Assembly (NCBI RefSeq): GCF_020171625.1
Contig: NZ_JAIUZY010000005.1
Span: 248,001-312,000 of the forward strand
Length of the DNA: 64,000 nucleotides
Direction: 5' to 3'
DNA from: Salipiger bermudensis
GTDB lineage: Bacteria > Pseudomonadota > Alphaproteobacteria > Rhodobacterales > Rhodobacteraceae
The translations under genes and the position numbers were made by a program. This document shows positions 31,303-36,933 of the stretch, in pieces (the first letter of the stretch is position 1; every line of letters starts with the position of its first letter). Under the pieces are notes generated by a model. The model searched no databases. It worked only from the letters and a program-made list of their open reading frames with translations, and was not told the DNA's origin.

Positions 31303-34300
31303 ATGCCCAAGAGAACCGATATCAAATCCATCATGATCATCGGCGCAGGGCCCATCATCATCGGCCAGGCCTGCGAGTTCGACTATTCCGGCGCACAGGC
31401 CTGCAAAGCCCTGCGCGAGGAAGGCTACCGGGTCATTCTGGTGAACTCGAACCCGGCCACGATCATGACCGACCCCGAGCTCGCCGACGCCACCTATATC
31501 GAGCCGATCACCCCCGAGATCGTCGCCAAGATCATCGAGAAGGAGCGCCCCGACGCGCTGCTGCCGACGATGGGCGGGCAGACCGGTCTCAACACCTCGC
31601 TCAAGCTCGAGGAAATGGGCGTGCTCGAGAAGTTCGGCGTGGAGATGATCGGCGCCAAGCGCGAGGCCATCGAGATGGCCGAGGACCGGGCGCTGTTCCG
31701 CGAGGCGATGGATCGCATCGGCCTCGAGAACCCGGCCGCCACCATCGTCACCGCCCCCACCAAGCCCAACGGCAAGGCCGATCTCGATGCCGGCGTCGCG
31801 ATCGCGCTCGAGGCGCTCGAGACCGTCGGCCTGCCGGCGATCATCCGCCCCGCCTTCACCCTCGGCGGCACCGGCGGCGGCGTGGCCTACAACCGCGAGG
31901 ACTATATCCACTACTGCCGCTCGGGCATGGATGCCTCGCCGGTCAACCAGATCCTCGTCGACGAGTCGCTGCTCGGCTGGAAGGAATTCGAGATGGAGGT
32001 GGTCCGCGACAAGGCGGACAACGCGATCATCGTCTGCGCCATCGAGAACGTCGACCCGATGGGCGTGCATACCGGTGACTCGATCACCGTGGCCCCGGCG
32101 CTGACCCTGACCGACAAGGAATACCAGATCATGCGCAACGGCTCGATCGCCGTGCTGCGCGAGATCGGCGTCGAGACCGGCGGCTCGAACGTGCAGTGGG
32201 CGGTGAACCCCGAGAACGGCCGCATGGTGGTGATCGAGATGAACCCGCGGGTGTCGCGCTCTTCGGCGCTGGCCTCCAAGGCCACCGGCTTCCCGATCGC
32301 CAAGATCGCCGCCAAGCTCGCCGTGGGCTACACGCTCGACGAGCTCGACAACGACATCACCAAGGTCACCCCGGCGAGCTTCGAGCCGACCATCGACTAC
32401 GTCGTCACCAAGATCCCGAAATTCGCCTTCGAGAAGTTCGCGGGCTCGGAGCCCTACCTCACCACCGCGATGAAGTCGGTGGGCGAGGCGATGTCGATCG
32501 GCCGCACGATCCACGAGTCGATGCAGAAGGCGCTGGCGTCGATGGAATCCGGCCTCACCGGCTTTGACGAGATCGAGATCGAGGGCGCGCCGGAGAAGTC
32601 CGCCGTCATCAAGGCGATCAGCCAGCAGACCCCGGACCGGCTCCGCACCATCGCGCAGGCCATGCGTCACGGGCTCTCGAACGACGAGATCCACGGCGTC
32701 ACCATGTTCGACCCGTGGTTCCTCGACCGCATCCGCGAGATCGTCGAGGCCGAGGAAGAGGTGCGCGCCAACGGTCTGCCGCAGACCGAAGAGGGGATGC
32801 GCCAGCTCAAGATGATGGGCTTCACCGATGCCCGGCTCGCCAAGCTCACCGGCTTCTCCGAGAAGGACGTGCGCGGCCGCCGCACCGCGCTTGGCGTCAC
32901 CGCCGTGTTCAAGCGCATCGACACCTGCGCCGCCGAGTTCGAGGCCCAGACGCCCTACATGTACTCTACCTACGAAGAGCCGATGATGGGCGAGGTGGAA
33001 TGCGAGGCGCGGCCCTCCGACAAGAAGAAGGTCGTCATCCTCGGCGGTGGTCCGAACCGGATCGGCCAGGGCATCGAGTTCGATTACTGCTGCTGCCACG
33101 CCTGCTTCGCGCTCACCGCCGCGGGCTACGAGACCATCATGATCAACTGCAACCCCGAGACCGTGTCGACCGACTACGACACCTCGGACCGGCTGTATTT
33201 CGAACCGCTCACCTTCGAGCACGTGATGGAGATCCTGCGGGTCGAGCGCTCGAACGGCACCCTGCACGGCGTGATCGTGCAATTCGGCGGGCAGACGCCG
33301 CTGAAACTGGCCAACGCGCTCGAGGCCGAGGGCATCCCGATCCTCGGCACCACGCCGGACGCCATCGACCTCGCCGAGGACCGCGAGCGCTTCCAGGCGC
33401 TGGTGAACCAGCTCGAGCTCAAGCAGCCGCGGAACGGCATCGCCTCGACCGACGCGCAGGCGCTGGCCATCGCCGACAGCATCGGCTTCCCGCTGGTGAT
33501 CCGCCCGTCCTACGTGCTGGGCGGCCGGGCGATGGAGATCGTCCGCGACATGGCCCATCTCGAGCGCTACATCAAAGAGGCGGTGGTGGTCTCGGGCGAC
33601 AGCCCGGTGCTGCTCGACAGCTATCTCGACGGTGCGGTCGAGCTTGACGTGGACGCGCTCTGCGACGGCGAGGCGGTGCACGTGGCGGGCATCATGCAGC
33701 ACATCGAGGAAGCCGGCGTGCACTCGGGCGACAGCGCCTGCTCGCTGCCGCCCTATTCGCTCTCGGACGACGTGATCGCCCGGGTCAAGGTGCAGACCGA
33801 GGCGCTGGCCAAGGCGCTCAACGTGGTCGGCCTGATGAACGTGCAGTTCGCTGTCAAGGATGACGAGATCTACCTCATCGAGGTCAACCCGCGCGCCTCG
33901 CGCACCGTGCCCTTCGTCGCCAAGGCCACCGACTCTGCCATCGCCTCGATCGCCGCACGCATCATGGCCGGCGAGAAGCTCTCGGCCTTCCCGATGCGCG
34001 AGGGCTACGCCGCCGACACCGACTATAACAGCGACGTGCCGATCGCCGACCAGATGACCCTGGCAGACCCGAACATGCCGTGGTTCTCGGTGAAGGAGGC
34101 GGTGCTGCCCTTCGCCCGCTTCCCCGGCGTCGACACCATCCTCGGACCCGAGATGCGCTCGACCGGCGAGGTCATGGGCTGGGACCGCTCCTTCCCGCGC
34201 GCCTTCCTCAAGGCGCAGATGGGCGCCGGCATCCATCTCCCGACCGAGGGCGCGGTGTTCGTGTCGATCAAGGACGCGGACAAGACCGAGCAGATGCTCG

Positions 34301-34635
34301 AGGCCGCCCGCGTTCTGGTCGAGATGGGCTTCACCCTGATCGCCACCGGTGGCACGGCGACCTTCCTCGAGGCGGCGGGCATCACCTGCGAGCGCGTCAA
34401 GAAGGTCTACGAGGGCCGTCCGAACGTGGTCGACCTGATGAAGGACGGTGGCATCCAGCTGGTGTTGAACACCACCGAGGGCACCGCCGCGGTCGAGGAC
34501 AGCCGCGAGATCCGCTCGGTCGCGCTCTACGACAAGATCCCCTACTTCACCACCGCCGCCGGCGCCCACGCCGCGGTGATGGCGATGAAGGCCCGCGAGG
34601 AGGGGGAGATCGTGGTGAAGTCGCTGCAGGGGTGA
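31303..34635 (+). CDS. carB: Carbamoyl-phosphate synthase large subunit
   Basis: The 1110-residue subunit makes carbamoyl phosphate from ammonia (supplied by the CarA glutaminase), bicarbonate and two ATP, for pyrimidine and arginine synthesis. It shows the internal duplication: two ATP-grasp halves with [21 protein letters not shown] near residue 10 and [20 protein letters not shown] near residue 575. A C-terminal allosteric MGS-like domain (from about 960) contains [16 protein letters not shown]. Length is normal for the group. carA is not in the window. The gene is followed by a strong hairpin and then the repeat-rich gap. Confidence 0.97.
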
Positions 34636-34737
34636 GGCTCTGAATGCAAACTGGATGAAGCGCGACACCAAGACGGCGCGCTTTCTGGTCCAGAAGGCTT
34701 CGAGCAAGGCGCTCGAGGGCATCTACAAAAGACATTC

Positions 34738-34771
34738 AGATAAGGCGGGGCGGAAACGTCCCGCCTTATCT
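34738..34771. terminator. Strong GAAA-loop hairpin after carB
   Basis: A 15-bp stem with one G-U pair (34738-34752 with 34757-34771) closes a GAAA tetraloop about 100 bases after the carB stop. It lacks a T-run, so it may be a Rho-assisted terminator or an mRNA-stabilising end. Confidence 0.6.
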
Positions 34772-34782
34772 GCGTCTGAACA

Positions 34783-34963
34783 ACGCCCCGGCGCGGAATC
34801 AAGCCCGAAGGGCGCCGCGCAAGCGCCGGACCGTCCCTGCGGTTTGGCGTTTTGGTGACGTCAGCGCCGCGTGTCGAGGTCTTTTGGACTTGGCCGGGAT
34901 AAATCGAGAGGTTCGACGGGATGAGCGCCAGCCCACGGTCCGGCGCTTGCGCGGCTTGCTCTG
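34783..34963. repeat. 181-bp direct repeat, copy 1
   Basis: It matches 35113-35293 at a constant 330-bp offset with 13 differences and no gaps (168 of 181 identical by my count). Inside it, 34814-34834 and 34935-34955 form a perfect 21-bp inverted repeat around a core holding the palindrome TGACGTCA (34856-34863). Confidence 0.85.
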
Positions 34964-35028
34964 TTGAGCGGGCCTCAAGGTCAGTGCGTGAGCGCGAGGT
35001 GCGAACCCATGACTGCGCTGGCTGACGC

Positions 35029-35108
35029 TTTGGTGACGTCAGCGCGGCGTGTCGAGGTCCTTCGGATCTGGCCGGGATACATCGAGAGGTTTTACGGGAC
35101 GAGCGCCC
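35029..35108. repeat. Partial copy of the same repeat (80 bp)
   Basis: It matches the core of the 181-bp unit (35181-35260) with 7 differences, starting just before TGACGTCA (35034-35041). It lacks both inverted-repeat arms. Confidence 0.8.
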
Positions 35109-35112
35109 AACC

Positions 35113-35293
35113 ACGCCCCAGCGCGGAATCAAGCCCGAAGGGCGCCGCGCCAGCGCCGGACCGTCCCGGCGGTCTGGCGCTTTGGTGACGTCAGCGCCGC
35201 ATGTCGAGGTCCTTCGGATCTGGCCGGGATAAATCGAGAGGTTCGGCGGGACGAGCGCCAGCCCACGGTCCGGCGCTTGCCCGGCTTGCTCTG
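35113..35293. repeat. 181-bp direct repeat, copy 3
   Basis: It is the second full copy, with TGACGTCA at 35186-35193. Its flanking inverted-repeat arms (35144-35164 and 35265-35285) differ from each other at two positions. Confidence 0.85.
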
Positions 35294-35418: not shown

Positions 35419-36933
35419 ATGACCACGCCGAAACCCGTTGTCCTGACCATTCTCGACGGCTGGGGCCTGCGCGAGGAGGAGGCGTTCAACGCGCCGAAGC
35501 TCGCCCGCACGCCCACCATGGACAAGCTCTATGCCAGCTGCCCGCACGCCACGCTGGTGACCTTCGGGCCGGATGTGGGGCTGCCGTCGGGGCAGATGGG
35601 CAACTCGGAAGTGGGCCACACCAATATCGGCGCGGGCCGGGTCGTGGCGATGGATCTCGGCCAGATCGACCTCGCCATCGAGGACGGCTCCTTCTTCGAC
35701 AACGACGCGATCAAGAGCTTCGCCGCCAAGGTCCTCGACGCGGGCGGCACGGCCCATGTCATGGGCGTGGTCTCGGATGGCGGCGTGCATGGCCATATCG
35801 AGCACCTCAAGGCCGGCGTGGAGATGCTCACTGATCTTGGCTGCAACGTCATCGTCCACGCCATCACCGACGGTCGCGACGTGGCACCGAAATCCGGCGA
35901 GGCCTTCGTGAAGGACCTGTCCGACAGCCTGCCGGACGGCGCCTCGATCGGCACCGTCATCGGGCGCTACTACGCCATGGACCGCGACAATCGCTGGGAG
36001 CGGGTCGCACAGGCCTATGACGCGATGATCCTCGCCAAGGGCGAGACCGCGCCGGACCCGGTCACGGCGGTCAGCCAGAGCTACGCCAACGGCAAGACCG
36101 ACGAGTTCATCCCCGCCACGGTGATCGACGGCTACGCGGGGCTGGCCGCGGGCGATGGCTTTTTCTGCATGAACTTCCGCGCCGACCGCGCCCGCGAGAT
36201 CCTGCGCGCCATCGGCGAGCCGGGATTCGACGGGTTCGAGCGCGAGAAGCCCGAGCTCTCGGCGCTGCTGGGCATGGTCGAGTATTCCGACGATCACAAC
36301 GCCTACATGGCCACCGCCTATCCCAAGCGCGAGATCGTCAACACGCTGGGCGAGTGGGTGGCCAAGCACGGACGGCGGCAGTTCCGCCTCGCCGAAACCG
36401 AGAAATACCCGCATGTCACCTTCTTCCTCAACGGCGGCAAGGAGACCCCGGAGGAGGGTGAGGACCGGTTCATGCCGAAATCGCCCAAGGTGGCGACCTA
36501 CGACCTGCAGCCCGAGATGTCCGAGCCCGAGGTGGCCGAGAAGTTCGTCGAGGCCATCGAGGCCGGCTACGACTTGATTGTCACCAACTTCGCCAATCCC
36601 GACATGGTCGGTCATACCGGCGATCTCGAGGCCGCGATCAAGGCCTGCGAGGCGGTCGATGACGGCCTCGGGAAGGTCGTCGCGGCGCTTGAAAAGGCGG
36701 GCGGTGCGATGGTCGTGATCGCCGATCACGGCAATTGCGAGACCATGTGGGACGCGGCCACCGACGGCCCGCACACTGCCCACACCACCAATCTGGTGCC
36801 GGTGATCCTGTTCGGCGGCCCCGAGGGCGCAACGCTGCATGACGGCCGGCTGGCAGACGTGGCGCCGACGCTGCTGCAGCTCATGGGGCTCGACCAGCCC
36901 GAAGAGATGACCGGGTCGAGCCTGATCGACTGA
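35419..36933 (+). CDS. gpmI: 2,3-bisphosphoglycerate-independent phosphoglycerate mutase
   Basis: The 504-residue enzyme interconverts 3- and 2-phosphoglycerate in glycolysis and gluconeogenesis with two Mn2+ ions. The alkaline-phosphatase-type metal site is visible: LTILDGWG (Asp13), GNSEVGHTNIGAG with the nucleophile Ser63, and late DMVGHTGD and IADHGNCE blocks. The central phosphotransferase insertion (about 80-300) includes TDGRDVAP. AGGAGGG precedes the ATG. It leads an apparent operon with the EnvC-type gene, whose ATG overlaps the gpmI stop by one base, and ctpA. Confidence 0.96.
   Translation: MTTPKPVVLTILDGWGLREEEAFNAPKLARTPTMDKLYASCPHATLVTFGPDVGLPSGQMGNSEVGHTNIGAGRVVAMDLGQIDLAIEDGSFFDNDAIKSFAAKVLDAGGTAHVMGVVSDGGVHGHIEHLKAGVEMLTDLGCNVIVHAITDGRDVAPKSGEAFVKDLSDSLPDGASIGTVIGRYYAMDRDNRWERVAQAYDAMILAKGETAPDPVTAVSQSYANGKTDEFIPATVIDGYAGLAAGDGFFCMNFRADRAREILRAIGEPGFDGFEREKPELSALLGMVEYSDDHNAYMATAYPKREIVNTLGEWVAKHGRRQFRLAETEKYPHVTFFLNGGKETPEEGEDRFMPKSPKVATYDLQPEMSEPEVAEKFVEAIEAGYDLIVTNFANPDMVGHTGDLEAAIKACEAVDDGLGKVVAALEKAGGAMVVIADHGNCETMWDAATDGPHTAHTTNLVPVILFGGPEGATLHDGRLADVAPTLLQLMGLDQPEEMTGSSLID

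Follow-up and report, generated by a model that had tools for sequence, protein, structure and literature searches.

The 64-kb stretch of Salipiger bermudensis DNA analysed here (64,000 nucleotides, called the window below; all positions refer to it) contains carB and gpmI, and a codon-usage gene caller placed no gene between the end of carB (34635) and the start of gpmI (35419), in agreement with the initial annotation. The gap holds a 165-bp element, twice in full and once in part, and a separate hairpin next to carB. The features of the locus are as follows:

31303-34635: carB.
34737-34772, forward strand: separate 16-bp hairpin (inverted repeat) directly 3' of carB, outside the element.
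34791-34955, forward strand: full copy 1 of the 165-bp element (model match of 180.1 bits; included in alignments of 28 and 108 copies).
34791-34820, forward strand: head hairpin of copy 1 (covariation count), with GAATC, a GANTC site, on its loop side (GANTC counts); its 3' strand overlaps arm A.
34814-34834, forward strand: arm A of copy 1, the left arm of the long stem (complementarity to 34935-34955; covariation).
34841-34851, forward strand: inner arm A' of copy 1, pairing with inner arm B (covariation, helix 2).
34852-34923, forward strand: core of copy 1, enclosed by the stems and containing GGGATAAATCGAG and the invariant ATAAA.
34924-34934, forward strand: inner arm B of copy 1 (covariation).
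34935-34955, forward strand: arm B' of copy 1, the right arm of the long stem (complementarity to arm A; covariation).
35017-35113, forward strand: partial middle copy (62.1 bits; model positions 49-144).
35121-35285, forward strand: full copy 2 of the 165-bp element (model match of 171 bits).
35419-36933: gpmI.

The initial annotation had described a 181-bp repeat unit, and the repetition is real: positions 34783-34963 and 35113-35293 are identical at 168 of 181 positions at an offset of 330, and repeat finding returned a 197-nt repeat with 90% identity at the same offset. The element proper, however, is the 165 bp at 34791-34955; in alignments of copies from this and related genomes, similarity fades outside this unit, which in copy 1 runs from GCGCGGAATC to GCGCGGC. 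The counts given for the inverted arms were exact, with 21 of 21 complementary positions in copy 1 (34814-34834 and 34935-34955) and 19 of 21 in full copy 2 (35144-35164 and 35265-35285). A partial copy does lie between the full ones, but it is nearer 97 bp than the 80 bp originally given (35017-35113 by the covariance model, 35017-35124 by repeat finding), and comprises an inner arm and the core, the head and outer arms being missing. A palindrome in the core, TGACGTCA, was confirmed at 34856, 35034 and 35186, each inside the repeat and nowhere else in the window, but it is absent from the consensus and is thus not a feature of the family. The core motif ATAAA was found in all 28 of the aligned full copies, and the partial middle copy has ATACA at this position. 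An IHF site in the core was considered and dropped, the match being partial when judged by eye.

A copy was present at the carB-gpmI site in four of eight genomes compared, and the three copies in this genome correspond to a single one in the relative G019, so that the extra copies would have arisen here by tandem duplication of a resident one. A simple scan of the gap found neither a promoter nor a T-run terminator, and did not flag the 16-bp hairpin at 34737-34772, which is perhaps the carB transcription terminator. Rfam gave no matches at gathering score in the 64-kb window, on which basis a known RNA family was rejected; one sub-threshold match (E 0.15) covered the carB-side hairpin. Positions 34641-34740, just 3' of carB, resemble by eye the 3' end of the small open reading frame (...GNWVKRDAKTGRF...) that G001 has at this place. 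The gap measures 1.0-1.4 kb in G006, G012 and G001, with different content as judged by eye, which makes it look like an insertion hotspot.

The repeat is not confined to this locus. A covariance model search of the same genome returned 58 rows at E<=1, among them opposite-strand echoes of copies already counted; the best 30 loci occupy approximately 24 sites, and in a chance control of 320 kb of other stretches of this genome the best score was 18.5 bits, versus 180 at carB-gpmI. Within Salipiger, 17 of 20 genomes matched, with 0 to 70 matches per genome when opposite-strand echoes are included (0 in G002, G011 and G016; 70 in G006), and many of the matches in relatives were full length. In a sample of Rhodobacteraceae, 66 of 149 genomes matched the model, and in a class-wide sample searched with strict filters two of 289 genomes did so, namely this genome and G207, both Rhodobacteraceae. 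Searching named genomes with the head sequence yielded at least 80 loci, in genomes that we take from their names to be Rhodobacterales (one was verified). A model match at E<=1e-5, in a few cases short, was obtained at 41 of 43 tested loci from the 80 listed, which, having been chosen by their heads, provide no estimate of prevalence; one viral locus was tested in addition. Two copies inspected on S. abyssi plasmids both lie between convergent genes, and a match on a Pseudosulfitobacter plasmid lies between codirectional genes. One contig of a viral collection (L421) carries a full element at 1829-1993, between genes that on our own reading are presumably terminase-like and portal-like; the gene order suggests that this contig is part of a gene transfer agent cluster from Rhodobacterales. 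The carB-gpmI element is a member of a dispersed non-coding hairpin family of Rhodobacterales. The initial annotation had seen in it a non-coding mobile or structural element that was duplicated locally, and both the dispersed copies and the local duplication support this; a duplication restricted to carB-gpmI is ruled out by the copies elsewhere in this genome and in relatives.

The structural part of that proposal was supported by covariation. The long stem (model positions 24-44:145-165) and the inner stem (51-61:134-144) together comprise 31 pairs, and across 28 copies 93.6% of the cells were paired, with double changes in 11 of the 31 pairs. The covariation score for these pairs was 0.237, compared with 0.080 after shuffling and at most 0.076 when the pairing was slid. 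A head hairpin (1-6:25-30, with an inner stem at 13-16:20-23) is present on one side of the unit only, and the local hairpin of the left arm pairs as well; position 38 of the left arm, however, covaries with the far arm rather than the near one. In this genome, arms of the long stem fitted their own partner better (0.872) than the arms of other copies (0.795; z 7.5, such z values being inflated by subfamily relatedness). The same preference was repeated in all four other genomes tested (G018, G006, G019 and, least clearly, G014), with the best of 1,000 shuffles equalling the observed value in G006 and G014; no own-partner preference was seen in G014 for the inner stem or for the A:A' and B:B' hairpins. 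Since arms fit the partner of their own copy best, either pairing or correction within the copy keeps them matched, and a shared binding sequence is not the whole cause.

Correction within the copy could be achieved by template switching inside hairpins, a process that corrects imperfect inverted repeats, and it would produce arm matching within but not across copies, as observed, with the pairing itself unselected. The arms are, however, approximately 100 nt apart, which is long for quasi-palindrome correction, and most differences between copies at shared sites are one-sided changes rather than repair (see below); we consider this explanation quite improbable.

Wobble pairs were counted to 18 GT and 64 AC in A:B', 16 and 19 in A':B, 29 and 7 in A:A' (position 38 omitted), 9 and 43 in B:B' (positions 140-141 omitted) and 11 and 11 in the head. 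The long stem and B:B' thus favour the minus strand and A:A' the plus strand, so that wobble pairs decide no folding strand. Copy 1 gave stable folds for either strand (z -3.75 and -3.46).

The element is preferentially located behind genes. Out of 97 classified sites (the window, L134 and one edge-case site being omitted), 63 were between convergent, 32 between codirectional and 2 between divergent genes, compared with 23, 69 and 27, respectively, for 119 background gaps of at least 100 bp (Fisher p 8e-12 for convergent and 4e-6 for divergent positions, with the qualification that G000, G019 and G018 share sites, which are therefore not independent). Genes for this count were called by a codon-usage script trained on the 64-kb window. 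The strong bias towards convergent and 3'-end positions, together with the stable folds on both strands, speaks for the main rival to a mobile element, a resident functional RNA or DNA element (a bidirectional terminator, a 3'-end mRNA stabiliser or a protein-binding unit) that is selected at gene ends and is chiefly non-mobile. Against such a role, 42 of 136 gene ends already carry a terminator-like hairpin between the stop codon and the element, versus 2 after shuffling (22 ends with less than 35 bp to the element being skipped), which argues against the element as the main terminator there; in addition, the gap in the window is without a T-run terminator, wobble pairs indicate no single strand, and match counts ranging from 0 to 70 within one genus are at odds with a resident function.

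Comparison of the same sites between relatives bears on both explanations. Of 13 sites of this genome that were tested, 11 had a copy in G019; in G018, 10 of the 12 that are syntenic had one. Most of the Salipiger sites tested are thus old, with little sign of present movement in this genus. According to strand reading, the strongest copy kept its orientation at 10 of 11 sites shared with G019 and 8 of 10 shared with G018, the orientation being reversed at S122 and, in G018, at S008. One G018 site, an 85-bp gap, is empty in a near-precise manner, with junctions near the consensus ends, and at S116 in G019, which also lacks a copy, a deletion may be the cause. In 36 same-site copy pairs of agreeing orientation, 123 one-sided changes made or broke a long-stem pair, versus 5 double changes that kept one (159 versus 10 when S122, S008 in G018 and two second copies, left out here, are counted). 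Mostly one-sided changes at shared sites indicate that individual copies decay, and the loss of pairs mostly without compensation weighs against a resident functional element. On the other side, elements were 86.5% identical at 10 sites, versus 79.8% for intergenic flanks and 94% for genes, and exceeded their flanks at all eight single-copy sites with G019 and at seven of eight sites with G018, which hints at weak constraint on resident copies and would favour a function at gene ends. This comparison covered 10 of 13 sites (excluding two without a model copy in G019 and one that was not compared); at the two multi-copy sites, most of the alignment is to the other copy, and the rows for S122 and for S008 in G018 are doubtful because of their orientation.

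Evidence for recent spread came from a metagenome-assembled genome (MAG), G184, in which 18 copies at different loci had a mean pairwise identity of 92%, with a best of 98% (19 copies were fetched, one at a contig edge being excluded). These near-identical copies indicate a recent burst, and their presence at many loci is a further point against an element resident at gene ends. Copies in G184 form a longer unit, the outer inverted ends of which are TTTTGGCCTGGAGCGGACGTT; a weaker similarity continues for approximately 75 bp further out on each side. With up to three mismatches, the outer end pattern occurred 197 times, versus 9 for the reversed pattern. Among 30 of the 197 end matches that were inspected, 22 were full copies, 3 were cut by contig ends and 5 were short, deleted or degenerate, and none enclosed a gene that could be an autonomous partner; internal deletions were seen in some copies. 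Outer ends of the element lie within approximately 200 bp of the contig end in G184 contigs C3, C5, C7, C35, C42 and C55, which suggests that the repeat breaks the assembly of this MAG. No target duplication above chance was found at the 165-bp ends (108 copies versus re-paired flanks), a negative result that is qualified by the possibility, raised by the similarity in G184, that the true ends extend further out.

Taken together, the element is probably a non-autonomous mobile DNA hairpin that is copied or moved in trans and survives at gene ends, and a functional, chiefly non-mobile element at gene ends is unlikely. The mobile DNA would spread as a unit through a putative nuclease or transposase acting in trans. 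The enzyme or copying process would require the ends to be paired, their sequence not being enough, because copies in the same genome differ in arm sequence yet match within each copy. Insertions would persist mostly behind genes, where they would do least harm.

Of 108 copies, 53 have a GANTC site in the head hairpin, and so do 13 of the 17 genera tested (one of 18 loci, at a contig edge, was skipped). GANTC density was 4.0 per kb in the 108 copies versus 0.81 per kb over a 320-kb background, and 5.4 versus 0.76 per kb in the 17 genera, an approximately five- to seven-fold enrichment. A more specific form of the mobile explanation is a self-contained class of hairpin mobile DNA, the copying of which would require paired single-stranded ends, be tied to the cell cycle by the CcrM (GANTC) methylation site in the head loop and depend on a non-RAYT enzyme of the host or of a transposon; we regard this as improbable. 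To the right of the element at L116 lies a lone head hairpin without a body, and several head sequences in this genome are 50-110 bp from a body or without one. At L120 and L470 (G184), other palindromic pieces of approximately 45-60 bp lie, by eye, inside the head hairpin of unrelated copies at about the same position, as if the head hairpin were itself an insertion target. The Salipiger copies L035 and L036 are flanked by TGCCCACCCTACA-type inverted sequences, which may belong to a further family of short palindromic repeats or mark an outer end.

With matches in 66 of the 149 genomes sampled from a large and mostly marine family, and no Rfam match in the window, the repeat would explain many unexplained intergenic hairpins, would account for possible false small RNA calls, and perhaps causes some of the breaks between contigs in MAGs of this group. 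The G184 copies, being near-identical, are a place to seek the mobilising enzyme, and arm covariation within genomes leads to a testable proposition, that of a mobile element recognised by its fold and not by sequence alone. Among the matches listed in the literature searched, no description of the repeat was present in the portions consulted, which included parts of PMC12306157, PMC4809877, PMC5107571 and PMC10969869.

Several known repeat families resemble the element. REP, BIME and REPIN sequences (GTAG and CGTC families) are, in the part of PMC3733652 consulted, likewise inverted imperfect palindromes in extragenic positions at convergent or codirectional gene ends, and the two inverted imperfect palindromes around a spacer, as well as a location resembling that reported for REPs (PMC3733652 and PMC3116915, both in part), would fit mobilisation by a RAYT (Y1 tyrosine transposase), as in elements of the REP/REPIN type. 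The element is longer, however, and no GTAG or CGTC tag was recognised by eye at the arm borders of its consensus. Pfam Y1_Tnp had no match in this genome, and thus no Y1/RAYT transposase was found; it matched 3 of 20 Salipiger genomes, of which two lack any copy of the element and the third has 11 matches, leaving 17 of 20 without it. RAYT-driven movement was rejected on these searches and is very improbable. MITEs (RUP, NEMIS, ERIC and the 168-bp YPAL) share with the element, according to the part of PMC2229807 available, a length below 200 bp, the lack of coding sequence, inverted arms, a long stem-loop and many copies. The element is accordingly short and non-coding, with many dispersed copies, common ends and terminal inverted repeats (the 21-bp covarying arms, and the outer inverted ends in G184), but differs in being GC-rich, without TA ends, and in that neither a target duplication nor a parent insertion sequence was found.

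Br-REP1 and Br-REP2 of Bradyrhizobium are, in the part of PMC5082802 consulted, also intergenic repeats of Alphaproteobacteria that form several hairpins and lie at the 3' ends of genes, where cDNA reads occur; they belong to another order, and by eye the consensus printed in that part is unlike the element. The nearest known kind appears to be the CIR (Caulobacter CcrM-associated intergenic repeat), likened here through the description in part of a review (PMC2229807), in which CIRs are alphaproteobacterial intergenic repeats with inverted-repeat arms and GANTC at or in the stem loop, associated with CcrM. The 165-bp repeat is likewise an intergenic inverted repeat with GANTC in a hairpin loop, though not in every copy. 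According to the same partial source, CIRs are approximately 110 bp long with two separate arms joined by a linker, whereas the element is 165 bp long with a long, covarying stem closing its 5' and 3' ends; its model, moreover, matched Rhodobacteraceae only in the 289-genome class sample under strict filters, CIRs being known here by description. On the best reading, the repeat is a new family of a known kind (MITE/BIME/CIR).
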